Shown: one piece after another, positions 3,690 through 12,002 of the stretch | Layout of the letters: each line of letters starts with the position of its first letter | Position numbering within the stretch: position 1 is the first letter of the stretch | Origin: a virus | Virus record (IMG/VR): IMGVR_UViG_3300032313_000167 | Location: 1 to 26,472 of that record | Strand: one strand, 5' to 3' | DNA length: 26,472 nt | Notes under the pieces: model-generated | The model's input: the letters and a program-made list of their open reading frames with translations, nothing else | What the model was told of the DNA's origin: nothing | Database searches by the model: none | Translations under genes and position numbers: made by a program

Positions 3690-4322
3690 ATGGCATATAG
3701 CCGTGGTACGTCAAATAACATAATCGTTGGCGCAGCAGCACTTTTTATTGCTGACACAACGCTAACTCCTGCAACTCTAGAAGGCTTTGATGCAAGTGAA
3801 TCTTTTAAAGATACACTTTCAGATGAACTAGATTATACCAATGTAGGTTACACAATGAATGGTTTGGAACTACAGTTCCAGCCAGATTTTGGTGAAGTAC
3901 AGGTAGATCAGATTCTTGACGTTGCAAGACTATACAAGCAGGGTATGCAAGTTAATATGGCAACAGCATTTGCTGAAGCAACACTTGAAAACCTACTTGT
4001 TGCATTAGCATATCAAGACCAAGAAATTTCAGGAAACAAAGCAGCATCTACAGGACGTACATTAAACTTGTCCGCTGGAGATATTGGCGATGTTCCTGTA
4101 GAACGTGGTATTGTAGCAGTTGGTCCAGGAACAGGTAATCCTACAACAGCTGACACAGTAGAGCGTGTTTACACTGCCTACCGTGCACTCTCAATTGAGA
4201 ATGTTACAGTATCTGCAAAGCGTGATGAGGCTTCAATGTTTGAAGTTTCTTTCCGTCTTCTTCCAGAAGACACATCAGGTTCATATGGTAAGATCGTAGA
4301 TCGTACATACGGACAGTCATAA
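3690..4322 (+). CDS. Major tail tube protein
   Basis: The protein has 210 residues. AAAGGAG at 3677-3683 lies 6 nt from the ATG. The sequence (NNIIVGAAALFIADTTL, then ELDYTNVGYTMNGLELQFQP, then FGEVQVDQILDVARLYKQGM and LENLLVALAY) matches the pattern of actinophage major tail proteins, which polymerise as hexameric rings into the tail tube. It has its own promoter upstream and a strong terminator directly downstream, so it forms a separate, probably highly expressed unit. Codons such as CGT, CTT and AAG are enriched, as in the capsid gene. This is one of the safer structural calls. Confidence 0.8.
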   Translation: MAYSRGTSNNIIVGAAALFIADTTLTPATLEGFDASESFKDTLSDELDYTNVGYTMNGLELQFQPDFGEVQVDQILDVARLYKQGMQVNMATAFAEATLENLLVALAYQDQEISGNKAASTGRTLNLSAGDIGDVPVERGIVAVGPGTGNPTTADTVERVYTAYRALSIENVTVSAKRDEASMFEVSFRLLPEDTSGSYGKIVDRTYGQS

Positions 4323-4343
4323 TCTATAATTAGATTAATAAAA

Positions 4344-4376
4344 GGCCCACCTTTAATTAGGTGGGTTTTTTGTTTT
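4344..4376 (+). terminator. Rho-independent terminator after tail tube gene
   Basis: The 7-bp perfect stem CCCACCT/AGGTGGG (4346-4352 with 4359-4365) has a 6-nt loop and is followed by TTTTTTGTTTT. It closes the tube transcript and isolates it from the chaperone genes, which have their own promoter starting at the last T of this terminator. Confidence 0.9.
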
Positions 4377-4384
4377 GCTATGAT
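4376..4384 (+). promoter_or_regulatory. Extended -10 TGCTATGAT, near-leaderless promoter for long chaperone
   Basis: TGCTATGAT has one mismatch to the recurring TGCTATAAT. A start point near 4391 leaves only about 8 nt before the ATG at 4399, and no Shine-Dalgarno is visible. The stretch TGCTAnnATAGAATAGA is shared with the promoter at 23215, which also abuts its start codon. Confidence 0.5.
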
Positions 4385-4398
4385 AGAATAGAAATACC

Positions 4399-5091
4399 AT
4401 GGCAACAGCTGTATATAAAAGCAAAATAATAAATTTAATTAACGGAACTGAATTAGAGGTTATTCCGTTAAAAATAAAATACTTGCGTCAATTTATGGAA
4501 GCATTTGAAAATGTTAAAAAATCTAAAAATGATGATGAGGCAATTGAGTCATTAGTTGAGTGTGTAAGAATATCTATGAAACAGTTTTATCCAGAAATAT
4601 CAAAAAGTGTTTCGGACGTAGAAGATAATTTTGATATGCCAACAATATATAAAATCTTAGATGTATCTGCAGGAATTAAGATAAACGAAAAATCAGAAGA
4701 GCCTGTAAAGAGTCAGGCAACAGATAGCGGATCTTCATGGTTTGATCTAGACTTGGCAAAGATTGAAGCAGAGGTTTTTTTGCTGGGAATATGGAAAGAC
4801 TATAACGAACTAGAAGAATCTTTGTCTATGCCAGAGTTAGTTGCAACTCTTGAAATTAGCAGAGATTTAGAATATCAAAAAAATAAATTTTTAGCTGCAA
4901 TTCAAGGTGTTGATTTAGACAAAAATTCCGAATCTGGAAAAGGTCAAAAAGAGTGGGAAGACATGAAAGCTAGAGTTTTTAGTGGTGGAGCAACAACAGA
5001 TAGTAATGATATTTTAGCGCTACAAGGACATAATGCACAAAAAGCGGGGTTTGGAATTGGCATGGGACTAGAGTATGAAAACTTAACTTAA
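4399..5091 (+). CDS. Tail assembly chaperone, long (GT-like) form
   Basis: The protein has 230 residues. Residues 10-94 (INGTELEVIPLKIKYLR through DMPTIYKILDVSAGIKI) form a G-like domain clearly homologous to the next gene. Residues about 125-230 (VFLLGIWKDYNELEESLSM, then LAAIQGVDLD and ARVFSGGATT) look like the T part of a lambda-type GT fusion, which bridges tape measure and tube during tail assembly. Here G and T are fused in one frame, whereas most siphoviruses make GT by a -1 frameshift. A run of seven T (4775-4781) containing the slippery heptamer T TTT TTG lies at the G/T border. It has no visible Shine-Dalgarno and a near-leaderless promoter. Codons are AT-rich: 8 of 18 Ile are ATA and 3 of 22 Lys are AAG. 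All this suggests modest expression. Confidence 0.75.
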   Translation: MATAVYKSKIINLINGTELEVIPLKIKYLRQFMEAFENVKKSKNDDEAIESLVECVRISMKQFYPEISKSVSDVEDNFDMPTIYKILDVSAGIKINEKSEEPVKSQATDSGSSWFDLDLAKIEAEVFLLGIWKDYNELEESLSMPELVATLEISRDLEYQKNKFLAAIQGVDLDKNSESGKGQKEWEDMKARVFSGGATTDSNDILALQGHNAQKAGFGIGMGLEYENLT

Positions 5092-5105
5092 AATAGAGCC
5101 TGACA

Positions 5106-5114
5106 TGCTATAAT
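5106..5114 (+). promoter_or_regulatory. Perfect extended -10 TGCTATAAT for short chaperone
   Basis: TGC followed by a perfect TATAAT lies in the 46-nt gap between the chaperone genes, with no good -35. The start point would be near 5121, giving a short leader that carries the perfect AGGAGG at 5131-5136. Confidence 0.65.
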
Positions 5115-5130
5115 TAACATTAACCTATAT

Positions 5131-5136
5131 AGGAGG
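5131..5136 (+). promoter_or_regulatory. Consensus Shine-Dalgarno AGGAGG of short chaperone
   Basis: The perfect AGGAGG is 1 nt from the ATG at 5138 and 4 nt from the ATG at 5141, so the second ATG is the better start. It contrasts with the missing Shine-Dalgarno of the paralogous long gene at 4399. Confidence 0.75.
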
Positions 5137-5140
5137 AATG

Positions 5141-5470
5141 ATGACAACAACTACACATGAGGAAACAACCCTCACGTTAATTGATGGCACAAAGATTACA
5201 GTACGTCCTCTAAAAATCTCTCTACTTCGTCCATTCATGAAGAAGTTTGAGGGTGTGGGAGCAGTGGCGGATAATAATGAAAAATCTATGGACATTCTTA
5301 TGGAATGTGTTCAGATTGCAATGAAACAATATAAGCCAGAGCTTTCAGAAGACGTAGCAAAACTTGAGGAAATCGTAGATCTTCCAACAGTTTACAAGAT
5401 CGTAGAAGCAGCATCAGGAATTAAACTTGCTGAAGTTTCAGACGTTCTTGGCGTAACTATGGCTGAATAA
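5141..5470 (+). CDS. Tail assembly chaperone, short (G-like) paralogue
   Basis: The protein has 109 residues from the ATG at 5141, chosen for its spacing from AGGAGG; the adjacent ATG at 5138 would add one Met. By hand alignment it matches residues 10-94 of the upstream chaperone with about 39 identities in roughly 85 positions and one gap (IDGTKITVRPLKISLLR, MECVQIAMKQYKPELS, DLPTVYKIVEAASGIKL). It stops where the T-like part of the long protein would begin. No T-like reading frame follows before the tape measure start at 5493. It probably coats the tape measure as the G protein does. It has its own extended -10 promoter, a consensus Shine-Dalgarno and richer codons (no ATA among 8 Ile; 5 of 10 Lys AAG), suggesting expression well above the long form. 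Confidence 0.75.
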   Translation: MTTTTHEETTLTLIDGTKITVRPLKISLLRPFMKKFEGVGAVADNNEKSMDILMECVQIAMKQYKPELSEDVAKLEEIVDLPTVYKIVEAASGIKLAEVSDVLGVTMAE

Positions 5471-5492: not shown

Positions 5493-8400
5493 ATGTCTGA
5501 TGTTAATGCTAATATTGACATTAATATTAATTCGTCTAATGCATTGGCGCAACTTAAGTCACTGCAAAGGCAAATTGCTCAGTTTCACACCTCAATAGCC
5601 AAATCAAGTGAGTCAGCAGCACTTGCACAAAGAGGTTTACAAAAAAATCTTTTAAACAGTATTAATGCAATTAATGGCCTTACTGCTGAAATGCGAACAG
5701 TAACAACATCTGCAGAATCTTTTACAAATTCATTAGAAAAAAATAAGTTTTCAATGCGGGAATACTTCCGCTATGCTGGAGCATCTACAAAAACATTTGG
5801 AAGACTGTTTAAATCTGAGTTTGACACAATTGGCAAGGTAGCAGAAGAAAGAGTTAAAAGACTTCAAACCCAATATATTAAAATGGGTCGTGATGCTAAT
5901 GGAGCAATGCAGGCTATATCCATTACGCCTACTAGCCTTAACATGCAAGACTATGGTACAAAGACAGCCATAGCAGCACAGAAGCAAGCGCTATTTAATC
6001 AATTAATGAAACAGGGTTCTACCAACCTACTTAACTTTGGTAAAAATACACAGTGGGCTGGTCGTCAGCTTATGGTTGGTTTTACTATTCCGCTGGCTAT
6101 GGTTGGCACTGCTGCAACAAAAACTTTTATGGAGATGGAAGCACAAGCCATCAAGTTCAAAAAAGTTTATGGAGATTTATTTACACCAAAAGAAGAAACA
6201 CAGCAGGCACTAGATAACATTACAGAACTTGGTAAATCATTTACCCAGTATGGAATAGCAGTTTCAACAACAGTTGGACTGGCTGCAGAAGCAGCAGCTG
6301 CAGGTTTTTCTGGACTAGACCTTCAAAGACAGACAACAGAAGCAACACGCCTTTCTATCCTTGGTCAAATTGATAGTCAAAAAGCACTTGAAACAACTAT
6401 TTCATTACAAAATGCTTTTGGTATGTCGTCTGAAAAATTAGCAGGATCAATTGACTTTCTTAACGCAGTAGAAAACCAAACAGTCGTATCTCTTGATGAC
6501 ATAACTACTGCTATCCCAAAGGTTGCTCCAGTTATTCAGCAGCTTGGTGGAGATGTAAAAGATTTAACTTTCTTTATGGCAGCTATGAAAGAAGGTGGAA
6601 TTAATGCATCAGAAGGTGCTAACGCACTCAAGTCTGGTCTTGCTGCACTTATTAATCCAACTGGTAGAGCAAATGAAATGCTTAAAGGTTTTGGAATTAA
6701 TGCTAATGAAATTGTTACAAAAAACAAGGGTGATCTTAAAGCAACTGTTATTGAATTTGCTGAAGCACTTAATGCATTAGATCCATTAAATAGAGCACAG
6801 GCTATTGAGCAGATGTTTGGTAAGTTCCAGTTTGCTCGTCTATCAACACTTTTTGCAAACGTTGCTAAAGATGGCAACCAGGCAGCCCGTGTTCTTAATT
6901 TAGCAAACTCTTCTGTTGAAGAGCTTTCTTCTTTATCTGAGCAAGAACTTGGAATGACAGCAGATTCTGCAATGAATAAGTTTAAAAAGACTGTTGAAGA
7001 TCTTAAGATTGCCCTTGTTCCAGTAGGAAAGGCTTTCCTTGAAGCAGTCACACCTATTGTAGAGTTTGCTGGGAATATATTAGAAAAATTTGGAAATCTT
7101 TCAGACGGAACTAAAAAAGTAATAACATTATTGACAGTTGGTATTGGAGCAGTTGGACCAGTATTGCTTATGACATTTGGTTTGCTTGCTAACGGTGTTG
7201 CAAATATTATCAAACTATTCTTGACACTTCGTAACGGATATCAAAGGCTAACTGGCCAGTCTCAAATTCTTGGCGAACAAACTCAATACATGACAATGGA
7301 GCAGCTAGATGCTGCAGCAGCAGCCCACTCTCTTAATCAGACACACGCAACATTAACACAAACCTTTACGGCAGAGCATGCAGCAATACAAAAACTTATA
7401 GCAGCATATTCTTCAGCAGCATCAGCATCAGCAAACTTTGCAAGAGCAAATCCTGGAATGATGATGCCTGGAAGAATAGGGAAAAAGTTTGCACAAGGAG
7501 GAATGATTTCAGGTCCTGGAGGACCAACATCTGATTCAGTTCCAATTATGGCTTCTAACGGAGAAGCAATTATTTCTGCCGAAATAGTTAAAAAGTATCC
7601 TGGAATAATTGAAGGACTTATTTCTGGAAATATACCTGGGTTTAGAAATCCTGGAATTGTTGGAAAAACACCTACAACAGGATCTGTAATAGGTGGAACT
7701 TTCCCAGGAAGATCTTATTCACCAATTGCAATGCAAGCTCCAGGGAATACACCTTCTGGACCTGGCATGGATTTAGAGTGGGCTAAGTTTAGCCAAGAAG
7801 CAAATGCATCTTTTGCTGCATCTCTTAGAGTAATTGGCATGTTTGAAAAAGATATAAAACAAACACAGACAAATTATGCAGAGTTTTTAAAAGGACTTGA
7901 TCCAACAATTGATGAAATATATTCAATATTTAAATCAGGAATTACAGATGAAGTAACTGATATTAGTCAGGTTGGTAAATCACAATATCCTTTAATTATT
8001 CAACATATAAAAGACTTAGAAGCATCATCAAAAATAACTTCAGAACAAGCAGAGATACTTTCAACATCAGTTAGAAAATTAATTAATCCAAATGAAATAG
8101 ATAAAACAGTAAAAAATATTCAAAGAATTGAACTTGGAACAAGGTCTTCTGGAGAGGATTTTGTTAAAAGAGTTAGTTCTGAAAGACAAGGTGTAGATTT
8201 AAGAAAACAAACAAATAGAGCATTTGATTTTGAACTTAAAAAAAGAAATTTAGAAAGATCTCAATCAGAGTATAGTTTTGCTCATATTCCAAAGTCTGAG
8301 CCAACACGAACATTTGTTCCACCACAACTAAGAAAATCAAGACAAGGAGTAGGAACTCCAGCAGAGCAAGCAGTTTTTGATATCTTAGCTGGAGGAGGAT

Positions 8401-11400
8401 CTGTTAAAGAAGGCGAATTAATAAAAAAAGCAGAAAGATTAGCAACCTCTGCAGTTGTAGCAACAGCAAAAGCAGCAGGAACACAGTCTCCATCAAAAAA
8501 GACAATTCCAATTGGAGAAGATATTGCTCGTGGCCTTGAAGTTGGAATGACAAATAGAGTTGATGACGTAGCAAAATCTGGTCAACAACTTGGAACAGTG
8601 GCTACAGGTGGAGCCAAGTCTGGAACACGTAAAGTATCAGTACCACAGGGAGCTCCTTTATCAAGAGGTATAGCAATATCTGACCCAGCATTACTATCAA
8701 TGGCTTATCAAGAAAATATGATGAGGGATAAGGTAAAAGAACAGGCTAGCAAGATGCAAGTCATGAATCAAAAAATGGATACATTTAATAAAGGATTAAT
8801 GGGTGGAACCTTTGCACTAACATCTCTTGCAGGTGCAGGATCAATGGTTGGAGGTACAATAGGAAACCTTTCTCAACAGGTAATGAAATACTCTGGGCTA
8901 TTATTTGGATTAATGTCTGTTACACAACTATTAACACAGACAAAAATTGCAGAGCTAGCTGCAACAAGAATTGGTTTAGCAAAATCAGCTGGTGCAAATG
9001 CTTTGGCTGCGGGACCAATGTTTGGCGGATTATCAAAAGCAATTTCAGGACGTGCAGGACTTATTGGAATTATCTCTAGAGTTGGTATTAGACTTGCAGC
9101 CTTCTTAGGACCTGTAGGAATGGCAATTGCAGCAATCGGAACAGTTTACGGAGCATTTAAGTTTTTCAAAAAGAGAAGTGATGATGCAGCCTTTGCTGCT
9201 GAAGGTCTTGCAAAAGCAATGACTTTATCAAAAGATAAAGTTAAAACTTTAGCAGAATTACTAGGTCAAACCCCTACACCAAGAGCAGGTTCTGGAGCAA
9301 GAGTTAGTGCTAATCAACTTGATGCTGCAGAGCAAACTGCTGTAGATGAGTTAAGAAAAAGTAAAGACTTTTTAAAAACATATAAAGATGATATTCTTGC
9401 AATAAAAAATGCAACAGTAGGAGAAGCGCAGATTGCATTTAATGCTATTGCCTTAGACTTAAGTGGACAAGGTTTTACAGACAAGGCTATTAAAACTTAT
9501 ATTGATGCTTTAGGTGAAGAGGCTGGCAAAACAGAAGTTGCTCTAAAATTTAAAAAGATTGATTTATCTAAAGAAGAAGGAGTTGCTGCTGCAGTTAAGT
9601 TAGCAAAAGATACAGCAACAGGATTTAATAAAGCATTTGAAGGTGGCGTAAAAACTGAAAAACCTGTAATTGCTGCAAGGTATGGACAAGCTGTTTATGG
9701 ACCAGAAGAAATTAAGCTAACAGAAAAACAACAGAAACAATTAAATATTCGTTCAGCAGCACTTGCTAATACAATGACTGGATTAACTGCAGCATTTGGA
9801 AAACAAACAATAAAGGCAGATGCATACAATGCAGCAATGTTAGAAATAGCAACAACAATACCTAAAGGAAATGTTGGAATGCTGTTGATGGATAAAATCA
9901 TGACTAATATAAATCCTGAGTTTGCTAAAGCAAGTGCTGGTGTAAAGGACTATGATACAAAGATGCTATTACTAAGAGCATCGCTAGTCAATGCATCTGT
10001 TGCTGAAAAAATTTTTCAAGACCTACTGTCAAAGAATCCCGCTAAGGTAGCAGCAGCAAAAAAACAATTAGAAGAGTATAGACTTGCTACAGATGCTTTA
10101 GCAGGCCAAGTTGTTACCCCAAACCCTTACGTGCCACCAGATTCAACCTCAAAAGAAAAAAGCCCATTTCAACTAGCAATTGAACAATTAAAAAATCAAA
10201 GAACAGAAATGGTTAATACTGTAAAGGCTTACACCACTCTAAAAAATGCTGGAGTTGCAGCAGGTAAAGCATTTGCAATAGCAAAAGATCCAATATTAGC
10301 AGCAGGAATAAATTCTACAAAAGTTGGAACCGCAAAATGGAAAGAGTTAATTAAATTAATTAAGGAAACTGATGCAGCATTGGTTAAGAGTAAGCTTACA
10401 GAGCTACGTGCAGATAGAGATTATACAAAGCAGTTTACTGCCGTAGTTCCAGTATTAAAAAATCTAGGATTAAATGCACAAGAAATTCAAGATATCTTTG
10501 CAGACCCAGCATTTGCACAACAATTTATTAAAAATATAAAAAATGGAAAACTAGCAACAAAAGACCTTAATGATATTATTACAGTTACAATGCAGGATAG
10601 AACTGCTAAACTTAATTTTGAAACATCTCTTGAAACAGAAGAAGAAAAGTTTAAGTCTATTATAGGACGTACATCAGCTTTAATATCTCTTCGTGAAAAA
10701 TTAATTGACATAGAGTTTGCAGGAAAAATAAAAGAAGAAAATGATAAATTAAAAAAGCAAGAAAATGAACTACAAGATATAAATGATCAAATTGATAAAA
10801 TAACAAAAAAAGATATTGATCCACTACAGAAACAAATATCTGCTAATAACTTTGCTCTTGAAGGAATAGCACTACAAGAAGATAAAATTAATGAAAAATA
10901 TGACACACAAGTAAAAGCATTAGAAAAAATTAAAACACTAAATCAAGATATTTCTAATGTTCAAAAACAAAGAATTGGAATTGCAGATGCACTAACTAGT
11001 GGAAATGTATCTCAAGCACTCCAGCTAATTCAAGATGCAAGAGCACAACGAGCAGAGTCTGCAGCTTCTAGACAACAAGATGCACTAACTGCTGGTCGTG
11101 ATGCAGCTATTGGAGCATTAGGAAGAACTAAACTTGAAAAAGAAAACAAAAAATTACAATATGACATTAGCGTAATTGAAAATGGAAAACTATTAACTCT
11201 TAAAGAGCAAAAGAAAGAGATTGAAGAAAGCATAGATGCAACTAAAAGAGCAATTACCAAAATAGAATTACAGGTTGCAACATTAAAAGATACTGCACTT
11301 TATGCGGGACAAACTAAAACAGCAATTGACGAGCAAGAGGAATTAATACGCTTAGCAGATGCAGCGGGAATAAAATACAATGCAACACTAATTAAACAAT

Positions 11401-12002
11401 TAGCAAATGCAGAAGGAATTAAAGCAGCAATTAAAGATTTAGACACAACAGTTACAACAATCCACAATATTAAAACTGTTAATTCAAATGATATGCCTAC
11501 AGTATCAAGAGATGCAATTTTGGCACAGTTTGGCGGTTCATCTGAACAAAAAGCAAAAATACCTACACCTACACCTAAATCTACATCTACAACAGGAAAA
11601 GGAGTAATGGTTGGAGGTACGTTTGTAAATTATAAAGCTAAAGGTGGATTAATTCCAAAATATATGGCACTTGGTGGAAAAGCAATTGGATCTGACACAG
11701 TGCCAGCAATGCTTACTCCAGGAGAGTTTATAGTAAATAGAGCTGCTGCTTCTGCTAATGGTCCAATGCTTAAAGCATTAAATGAATCTAAGTACCCATC
11801 AATGCTTGGACAAAACTCATCTCTAACTGTGCCAATAGTAAACAACTCTACTTCTCTTAGCGATAACTCCACAGCAGTGTATAATTATAGTTTAGGCTTT
11901 AATATTAATGGATCTACTTCAAATCCTAATGATATTGCAAGAGCAGTGATTAAAGAGATTAAACAAATTGATTCACAAAGAATAAGGGGGTCTCGTAGAT
12001 AA
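5493..12002 (+). CDS. Tape measure protein
   Basis: The protein has 2,169 residues; AGAGGTG at 5477-5483 precedes the ATG. It sets tail length and is threaded through the tube before DNA ejection. Residues 1-190 are helical. A TP901-type core spans about 190-460 (FTIPLAMVGTAATKTF, AAEAAAAGFSGLDLQRQTTE, FFMAAMKEGGINASEGANAL). Hydrophobic segments lie near 542-585, 1114-1148 and 1191-1226, and could cross the host membrane. Coiled coils lie near 1745-1815 and 1882-1933. Two tape-measure-type glycine motifs occur, SDSVPIMASNGEAII near 679-693 and GSDTVPAMLTPGEFIVNR near 2066-2083, as if two ends were joined. Residues 2001-2045 hold a module also found in the gene at 17007. I see no clear peptidase or lysozyme motif. 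Residues about 640-1050 look less conserved and AT-rich, possibly an inserted segment. Confidence 0.9.
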   Translation: MSDVNANIDININSSNALAQLKSLQRQIAQFHTSIAKSSESAALAQRGLQKNLLNSINAINGLTAEMRTVTTSAESFTNSLEKNKFSMREYFRYAGASTKTFGRLFKSEFDTIGKVAEERVKRLQTQYIKMGRDANGAMQAISITPTSLNMQDYGTKTAIAAQKQALFNQLMKQGSTNLLNFGKNTQWAGRQLMVGFTIPLAMVGTAATKTFMEMEAQAIKFKKVYGDLFTPKEETQQALDNITELGKSFTQYGIAVSTTVGLAAEAAAAGFSGLDLQRQTTEATRLSILGQIDSQKALETTISLQNAFGMSSEKLAGSIDFLNAVENQTVVSLDDITTAIPKVAPVIQQLGGDVKDLTFFMAAMKEGGINASEGANALKSGLAALINPTGRANEMLKGFGINANEIVTKNKGDLKATVIEFAEALNALDPLNRAQAIEQMFGKFQFARLSTLFANVAKDGNQAARVLNLANSSVEELSSLSEQELGMTADSAMNKFKKTVEDLKIALVPVGKAFLEAVTPIVEFAGNILEKFGNLSDGTKKVITLLTVGIGAVGPVLLMTFGLLANGVANIIKLFLTLRNGYQRLTGQSQILGEQTQYMTMEQLDAAAAAHSLNQTHATLTQTFTAEHAAIQKLIAAYSSAASASANFARANPGMMMPGRIGKKFAQGGMISGPGGPTSDSVPIMASNGEAIISAEIVKKYPGIIEGLISGNIPGFRNPGIVGKTPTTGSVIGGTFPGRSYSPIAMQAPGNTPSGPGMDLEWAKFSQEANASFAASLRVIGMFEKDIKQTQTNYAEFLKGLDPTIDEIYSIFKSGITDEVTDISQVGKSQYPLIIQHIKDLEASSKITSEQAEILSTSVRKLINPNEIDKTVKNIQRIELGTRSSGEDFVKRVSSERQGVDLRKQTNRAFDFELKKRNLERSQSEYSFAHIPKSEPTRTFVPPQLRKSRQGVGTPAEQAVFDILAGGGSVKEGELIKKAERLATSAVVATAKAAGTQSPSKKTIPIGEDIARGLEVGMTNRVDDVAKSGQQLGTVATGGAKSGTRKVSVPQGAPLSRGIAISDPALLSMAYQENMMRDKVKEQASKMQVMNQKMDTFNKGLMGGTFALTSLAGAGSMVGGTIGNLSQQVMKYSGLLFGLMSVTQLLTQTKIAELAATRIGLAKSAGANALAAGPMFGGLSKAISGRAGLIGIISRVGIRLAAFLGPVGMAIAAIGTVYGAFKFFKKRSDDAAFAAEGLAKAMTLSKDKVKTLAELLGQTPTPRAGSGARVSANQLDAAEQTAVDELRKSKDFLKTYKDDILAIKNATVGEAQIAFNAIALDLSGQGFTDKAIKTYIDALGEEAGKTEVALKFKKIDLSKEEGVAAAVKLAKDTATGFNKAFEGGVKTEKPVIAARYGQAVYGPEEIKLTEKQQKQLNIRSAALANTMTGLTAAFGKQTIKADAYNAAMLEIATTIPKGNVGMLLMDKIMTNINPEFAKASAGVKDYDTKMLLLRASLVNASVAEKIFQDLLSKNPAKVAAAKKQLEEYRLATDALAGQVVTPNPYVPPDSTSKEKSPFQLAIEQLKNQRTEMVNTVKAYTTLKNAGVAAGKAFAIAKDPILAAGINSTKVGTAKWKELIKLIKETDAALVKSKLTELRADRDYTKQFTAVVPVLKNLGLNAQEIQDIFADPAFAQQFIKNIKNGKLATKDLNDIITVTMQDRTAKLNFETSLETEEEKFKSIIGRTSALISLREKLIDIEFAGKIKEENDKLKKQENELQDINDQIDKITKKDIDPLQKQISANNFALEGIALQEDKINEKYDTQVKALEKIKTLNQDISNVQKQRIGIADALTSGNVSQALQLIQDARAQRAESAASRQQDALTAGRDAAIGALGRTKLEKENKKLQYDISVIENGKLLTLKEQKKEIEESIDATKRAITKIELQVATLKDTALYAGQTKTAIDEQEELIRLADAAGIKYNATLIKQLANAEGIKAAIKDLDTTVTTIHNIKTVNSNDMPTVSRDAILAQFGGSSEQKAKIPTPTPKSTSTTGKGVMVGGTFVNYKAKGGLIPKYMALGGKAIGSDTVPAMLTPGEFIVNRAAASANGPMLKALNESKYPSMLGQNSSLTVPIVNNSTSLSDNSTAVYNYSLGFNINGSTSNPNDIARAVIKEIKQIDSQRIRGSRR
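11492..11530 (+). repeat. 39-nt dispersed direct repeat, copy 1 (inside tape measure gene)
   Basis: Identical over 39 nt to 17156-17194, with matching bases continuing further at 11537-11543 and 11545-11555. In both genes it is read in the same frame and encodes MPTVSRDAILAQF. The copies are 5,664 bp apart, an exact multiple of three. Confidence 0.9.
11601..11626 (+). repeat. 26-nt dispersed repeat encoding GVMVGGTF, copy 1
   Basis: Matches 17100-17125 with a single T/C difference at the 18th base. It encodes GVMVGGTFV in the tape measure C terminus and forms the second half of the shared module. Confidence 0.85.

Follow-up and report, generated by a model that had tools for sequence, protein, structure and literature searches.

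A fused tail assembly chaperone gene and a short paralogue that probably replace a programmed frameshift in a siphovirus-type phage lineage

The two chaperone genes and their products

The window, by which we mean the whole stretch of DNA analysed, is a 26.5-kb contig from an uncultured tailed phage. Two chaperone genes lie between its major tail protein and tape measure genes, the position occupied by the G/GT chaperones of siphoviruses (Table 1); in Stanwilliamsviridae, the gene at the position of the upstream neighbour is annotated as major tail protein. A first-pass annotation of the window had described the long gene as G-like and T-like domains fused in one frame and the short gene downstream as a G-like paralogue, with 39 identities in 85 aligned positions. 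Both descriptions are borne out by profile and pairwise searches. The long protein matches phrog_10504 over residues 1–101 (3e-23), its C-terminal part matches phrog_10474 (3e-15), and the short protein matches phrog_10504 along its full length (3e-19); BLASTP aligns the two with 40/88 identities (E = 1e-26). As far as their products can be read from the genes alone, the two encoded forms share an N-terminal G domain, to which the longer one adds a T domain, and the core motifs PLKI, LR-FM, and LPT of the G domain are kept in both.

Table 1. Features of the chaperone locus and its neighbours (positions in the window)
Feature	Position	Strand	Remarks
Major tail protein gene, upstream neighbour	3690–4322	+	phrog_2175, 1e-33; phrog_885 "major tail protein", 0.006
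Intrinsic terminator-like hairpin with U-tract, 3' of major tail protein gene	4337–4374	+	dG -21.4 kcal/mol, z -5.5
Promoter-like extended -10 of long gene, TGATAGAAT	4381–4389	+	9 nt upstream of ATG 4399
Long tail assembly chaperone, 230 aa	4399–5091	+	G-like and T-like domains fused in frame
G-like domain of long chaperone	about 4399–4698	+	
T-like domain of long chaperone	about 4717–5088	+	
Extended consensus -10 of short gene, TGCTATAAT	5106–5114	+	
Shine-Dalgarno sequence of short gene, AGGAGG	5131–5136	+	
Short G-type tail assembly chaperone paralogue, 110 aa	5138–5470	+	109 aa if the start is ATG 5141
Tape measure protein gene, downstream neighbour	5493–12002	+	phrog_10030, tape measure, 1e-97

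Two ATG codons compete for the start of the short gene. The Shine-Dalgarno sequence stands 1 nt from the first (5138) and 4 nt from the second (5141); because of the 4-nt spacing, and of the distance between -10 element and ATG in relatives, the second is favoured, and the short protein probably has 109 residues.

Named relatives are confined to two groups of phages. Matches were obtained by tblastn in 132 phage records, of which 127 are from Streptomyces phages (Stanwilliamsviridae, E up to 1) and 5 from Rhodococcus phages; many of the matched proteins are annotated as tail assembly chaperones and others as hypothetical proteins. With the long protein as query and E values up to 10, nothing beyond the Streptomyces and Rhodococcus phages was found among 50,697 phage records; this collection contains no phage of the fused clade described below. 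The short protein and the G proteins that carry a tail assembly chaperone annotation are members of one family. In HMM searches, curated chaperone families are linked weakly, searches of Pfam and NCBIfam gave no confident family, a sequence search of the PDB gave no relevant match, and a direct sequence link to lambda gpG was rejected (hhalign probability 0.2%).

The AlphaFold2 model of the short protein (mean pLDDT 72) consists of a beta hairpin followed by helices. Its two best matches among 350,542 PDB chains are chains A and B of the HK97 tail assembly chaperone, gp13 (2ob9; E = 0.71 and 2.4, not significant). In the BFVD viral library, the top match is a 104-amino-acid tail assembly chaperone (E = 1.5e-6, 32% identity) that is a sequence relative. 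A fold search of the PDB with the model of the long protein (pLDDT 78) returned nothing useful and no match resembling HK97 gp13.

Fused and frameshift loci among relatives

Relatives were surveyed in IMG/VR by running G and T profiles on stop-to-stop reading frames, which yielded at least 572 loci; the scans were seeded from known members, and the survey is non-exhaustive. When the count is restricted to unique T domains followed by 600 nt or more of visible sequence, at least 265 are fused in frame to G and accompanied by a second G gene, and at least 60 are unfused, lie in the -1 frame, and have no second G. Among the matches listed, there were no counter-examples to this pairing of fusion with a second G gene. 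One locus (L111) that might have passed for an unfused T with a second G was rejected, its contig starting inside T, as were eight fused loci lacking a second G, whose contigs all break off no more than about 160 nt past the T domain.

The junction between G and T differs accordingly in the two classes. In all 62 frameshift-type overlaps inspected (56 plus 6 new loci), T lies in the -1 frame and a slip site, CCCAAAN, CCCGGAA, or GGGAAAA, is present in -1 phase. The same is found in the Streptomyces phages Circinus, Braelyn, and Karp, where T is -1 to G and the overlap contains C CCA AAT or C CCG GAA in X XXY YYZ phase, and for Sham and the Rhodococcus phage Francesca the G and T frames are joined in the deposited annotation. 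A CCC-type (ancestral-type) heptamer at the G/T junction was seen in none of the 167 fused pairs inspected, and no overlapping T frame was found within the fused clade. A hidden frameshift at the fused junction was rejected as well: 15 of the 167 pairs have some heptamer within codons 85–125, none of them CCC-type and none conserved. The relatives of the frameshift type that were identified lie outside the clade, and none of them has a second G.

A survey of relatives for the same gene pair, proposed in the first-pass annotation, shows that it recurs in at least 275 non-identical pairs, and the two-gene anatomy is therefore not due to chance similarity or an assembly artefact. In two loci, L067 and L276, what looks like a change of frame interrupts the short G gene; either a sequencing error or a recent mutation may lie behind it. 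A GTDB scan for the host gave one non-decisive lead, a distant locus (L573:8001-8614) of the frameshift type, with G, T, and CCCAAAC; it lies on a 110-kb contig binned with an uncultured cyanobacterium (GTDB) and is probably a phage contig placed in that bin.

From these comparisons we conclude that the window probably encodes a siphovirus-type chaperone module in which two genes have taken over from a programmed -1 frameshift. This reading is well supported, except for the short:long protein ratio itself.

In a careful tree built from 133 G domains, a long-G clade (support 100/100), a short-G clade (98/83), and the frameshift G domains come apart, and a branch with 100/100 support sets the short-G clade and the frameshift G domains against the long-G clade. 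In the T tree, the fused T domains form one clade nested among frameshift loci with moderate support (74/72). Earlier quick trees had placed two frameshift loci, L367 and L466, inside the fused clade. Several independent origins were rejected in view of the single clade in the careful T tree and the strong single clades in the G trees. The trees are most simply read as a single duplication and fusion, after which the short gene stayed nearest to the ancestral G. If all fused loci descend from one event, as is probable, then the perfect association of fusion with a second G represents one transition kept by the sampled descendants and not many.

Median dN/dS is 0.31 for the long G domain, 0.18 for the long T domain, and 0.18 for the short gene, values that indicate purifying selection on both genes and make the short one the more constrained G. 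The faster divergence of the long G domain, which sits on its own long branch and has a mean identity of 56% against 69% for the short protein, would also be expected if the two G domains no longer mixed, the short protein serving as tape measure chaperone and the long one doing a separate job, such as starting tube polymerisation, so that their mutual stoichiometry would not be critical. We consider such a division of labour unlikely, since both G domains retain the core motifs and a second G occurs in every fused phage and in no unfused one among the matches listed, as would be expected if the fused and short proteins together restored the ancestral pair.

Expression signals and codon usage

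The putative signals upstream of the two genes are of different types. In 264 of 271 loci, the long gene has an extended -10 element ahead of it, which in 259 of these lies 5–9 nt from the ATG; its hexamer is TAGAAT in 110, TATACT in 63, TAAAAT in 44, TATAAT in 31, and another variant in 16. No Shine-Dalgarno sequence was found in 114 unique regions upstream of the long gene, nor at ATG 4399 in the window. A -10 element this near to the ATG is a published signature of leaderless genes (PMC3160421), and the start of the long gene appears to be effectively leaderless, with a predicted leader of at most about 3 nt in the window. Another gene of the same phage (ATG 582) seems to have a leaderless-type start too, TGGTATAAT at 568–576 ending 5 nt upstream of its ATG.

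The short gene has TGnTATAAT ahead of it in 267 of 271 loci, mostly 23–29 nt from the ATG, and 98% of unique upstream regions have a Shine-Dalgarno sequence of at least five bases. Both short-gene signals named in the first-pass annotation were located in the window (Table 1). The -10 hexamer is TATAAT for the short gene and not for the long one in 229 loci; the reverse case does not occur. Most sister frameshift phages have signals of the short-gene type ahead of G.

A terminator-like hairpin, absent from the features listed in the first-pass annotation, stands in the window between the major tail protein gene and the promoter-like element of the long gene, and 263 of 268 relatives have one in the corresponding place, ahead of the long gene. 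Terminator-like structures between the long and short genes were seen in 17 of 275 pairs. Seven loci (L015, L017, L019, L021, L027, L075, and L098) have an insert of about 780 bp between the two genes, which in L015 and L027 holds a methyltransferase-like open reading frame of 209–215 amino acids with the motif DVLELGCGSG. In these last two loci, the promoter and Shine-Dalgarno sequence of the short gene are kept beyond the insert, which supports independent expression. Promoters and terminators are named here from their motifs and predicted folds, and their activity is putative.

Codon usage separates the two genes in the same direction. The counts given earlier for the window proved exact: ATA serves for 8 of 18 Ile codons in the long gene and 0 of 8 in the short one, and AAG for 3 of 22 and 5 of 10 Lys codons, respectively. 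Across relatives, Ile ATA accounts for 45% in the long gene, 5% in the short gene, 2% in the major tail protein gene, and 6% in frameshift G; the corresponding figures for Lys AAG are 27%, 63%, 76%, and 81%. GC3 is higher in the short gene than in the long one in 254 of 275 pairs. By this measure, the codons of the short gene are of the type associated with high expression, like those of G in the frameshift relatives, and in nearly all pairs the predicted expression signals and codon usage point in the expected direction.

The long gene had been credited with a weak, near-leaderless promoter and no Shine-Dalgarno sequence. The near-leaderless start and the missing Shine-Dalgarno sequence are upheld, but leaderless need not mean weak, for example in actinobacteria, where leaderless genes are common (PMC3160421). 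Streptomyces and Rhodococcus are the hosts of the nearest named relatives, and 31 of the 264 long-gene promoters have the consensus TATAAT; a leaderless mRNA might therefore be translated efficiently, and the two products be made in near-equal amounts or separated in time rather than in amount. That the long gene is not weak nevertheless seems improbable to us, given that its codon usage differs from that of the genes for the major tail protein, the short G, and the frameshift G, that the consensus -10 distinguishes the two genes in one direction only, and that the long-gene transcript would also carry the short gene.

A two-gene circuit and its known counterparts

The proposed history begins with an ancestor that would have made G and, by -1 slippage on a CCC-type heptamer, GT. 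The module would then have been duplicated, one copy becoming an in-frame G-T fusion and the other losing T, so that the slip site disappeared. As the sequence shows, the stand-alone G keeps the ancestral style, with a TGnTATAAT promoter, a Shine-Dalgarno sequence, and the codons of a highly expressed gene, and the fused gene has a start of the leaderless type, preceded by a terminator and a promoter of its own. Since no terminator stands between the genes, the transcript of the long gene should also carry the short gene, and the second promoter would add further short-gene mRNA; the short form would as a consequence always exceed the long one, as gpG exceeds gpGT in lambda. By analogy with lambda, the tape measure protein would be coated by the short form, and the few long copies would recruit the major tail protein through T; binding of the tape measure protein by both forms and recruitment of the major tail protein by T come from work on lambda as summarised in PMC5009743.

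Slippage could persist in the fused gene, for instance on A AAA AAG within T, to give a truncated third product with G activity and leave the short gene an accessory role, but this is most improbable, in that the -1-phase A6N heptamer on which it would depend (113 of 275 pairs, long-gene codons 150–170) is missing from more than half of the pairs, falls among Lys-Lys codons that are simply rich in A and T, and lies away from the G/T boundary, at which slip sites are rare and not conserved. In the window, AAAAAAT occurs in -1 phase at 4878–4884 (codon 159 of the long gene, in the T domain). The A AAA AAN heptamers are probably a product of Lys-rich, AT-rich codons, on which slippage could lead to a stop a few codons on.

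Returning to the two-gene replacement, we favour, with some reservation, the fuller account in which, in an abundant and presumably freshwater phage lineage, the frameshift gave way in one event to a two-promoter circuit, comprising a leaderless, rare long form and a Shine-Dalgarno-led, abundant short form on nested transcripts, that was kept by every sampled descendant. If so, the essential product of the frameshift would be the ratio of two proteins, which could be encoded through the starts of transcription and translation. Kinship to Streptomyces and Rhodococcus phages, together with the leaderless starts, suggests an actinobacterial host; a freshwater origin would fit the kind of environment expected for the contigs.

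Few recoding events in tailed phages are conserved as widely as the G/GT frameshift. A clean lineage in which the slip has gone and a second gene has come in, and whose sisters still frameshift, amounts to a natural experiment on the reasons for keeping the slip, and its paired loci offer material with which the required ratio and its control could be tested. Annotators should not mistake a chaperone fused in frame, with a short paralogue behind it, for an error of assembly or annotation.

The closest named counterparts are in Stanwilliamsviridae (Circinus, Braelyn, Karp, Sham, and Coruscant, all on Streptomyces), with homologous G and T at about 40–47% identity, and in Rhodococcus phage Francesca, whose homologous G and T are more distant. 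All have the genes in the same position, between those for the major tail protein and the tape measure protein, but they differ from the window in having one G, with T reached in -1 via C CCA AAT, C CCG GAA, or G GGA AAA, and no second G. Nearer still are the uncultured frameshift-type loci L367, L383, L466, L467, L476, L488, and L492, whose T domains are nearest to the fused clade; they share the terminator, a TGnTATAAT-like element, and a Shine-Dalgarno sequence ahead of G, but their G and T frames are separate, with CCCAAAC, and a second G is absent. Lambda gpG/gpGT works in a similar way, with a short form and a longer G-T form produced before the tape measure protein; there, slippage programmed into a single gene sets the ratio, as in the frameshift family of Xu et al. 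2004 (reviewed in PMC5009743).

Two-gene chaperones have been described elsewhere. According to PMC10885494, citing Vladimirov et al. 2022, some T4-like phages do without frameshifting and have a separate short gene and a single long fusion gene, which by that description is the solution found here; those phages are of a myovirus lineage, and the window protein has no homology to their chaperones detectable by tblastn. In Microbacterium cluster EA phages, no frameshift is evident and the chaperones are reported as apparently expressed from two separate open reading frames (PMC7302621), which resembles the window in the use of two reading frames without a slip. Because of these reported cases, the arrangement is not new in kind; the first-pass proposal that two genes replace the frameshift is supported, and its claim to a different solution yields to the T4-like precedent as PMC10885494 presents it. 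On present comparisons, the arrangement in the window is apparently a variant independent of the T4-like case, and what appears to be new is its occurrence in a siphovirus-type lineage, with frameshift-using sisters and with conserved leaderless as against Shine-Dalgarno-led signals.
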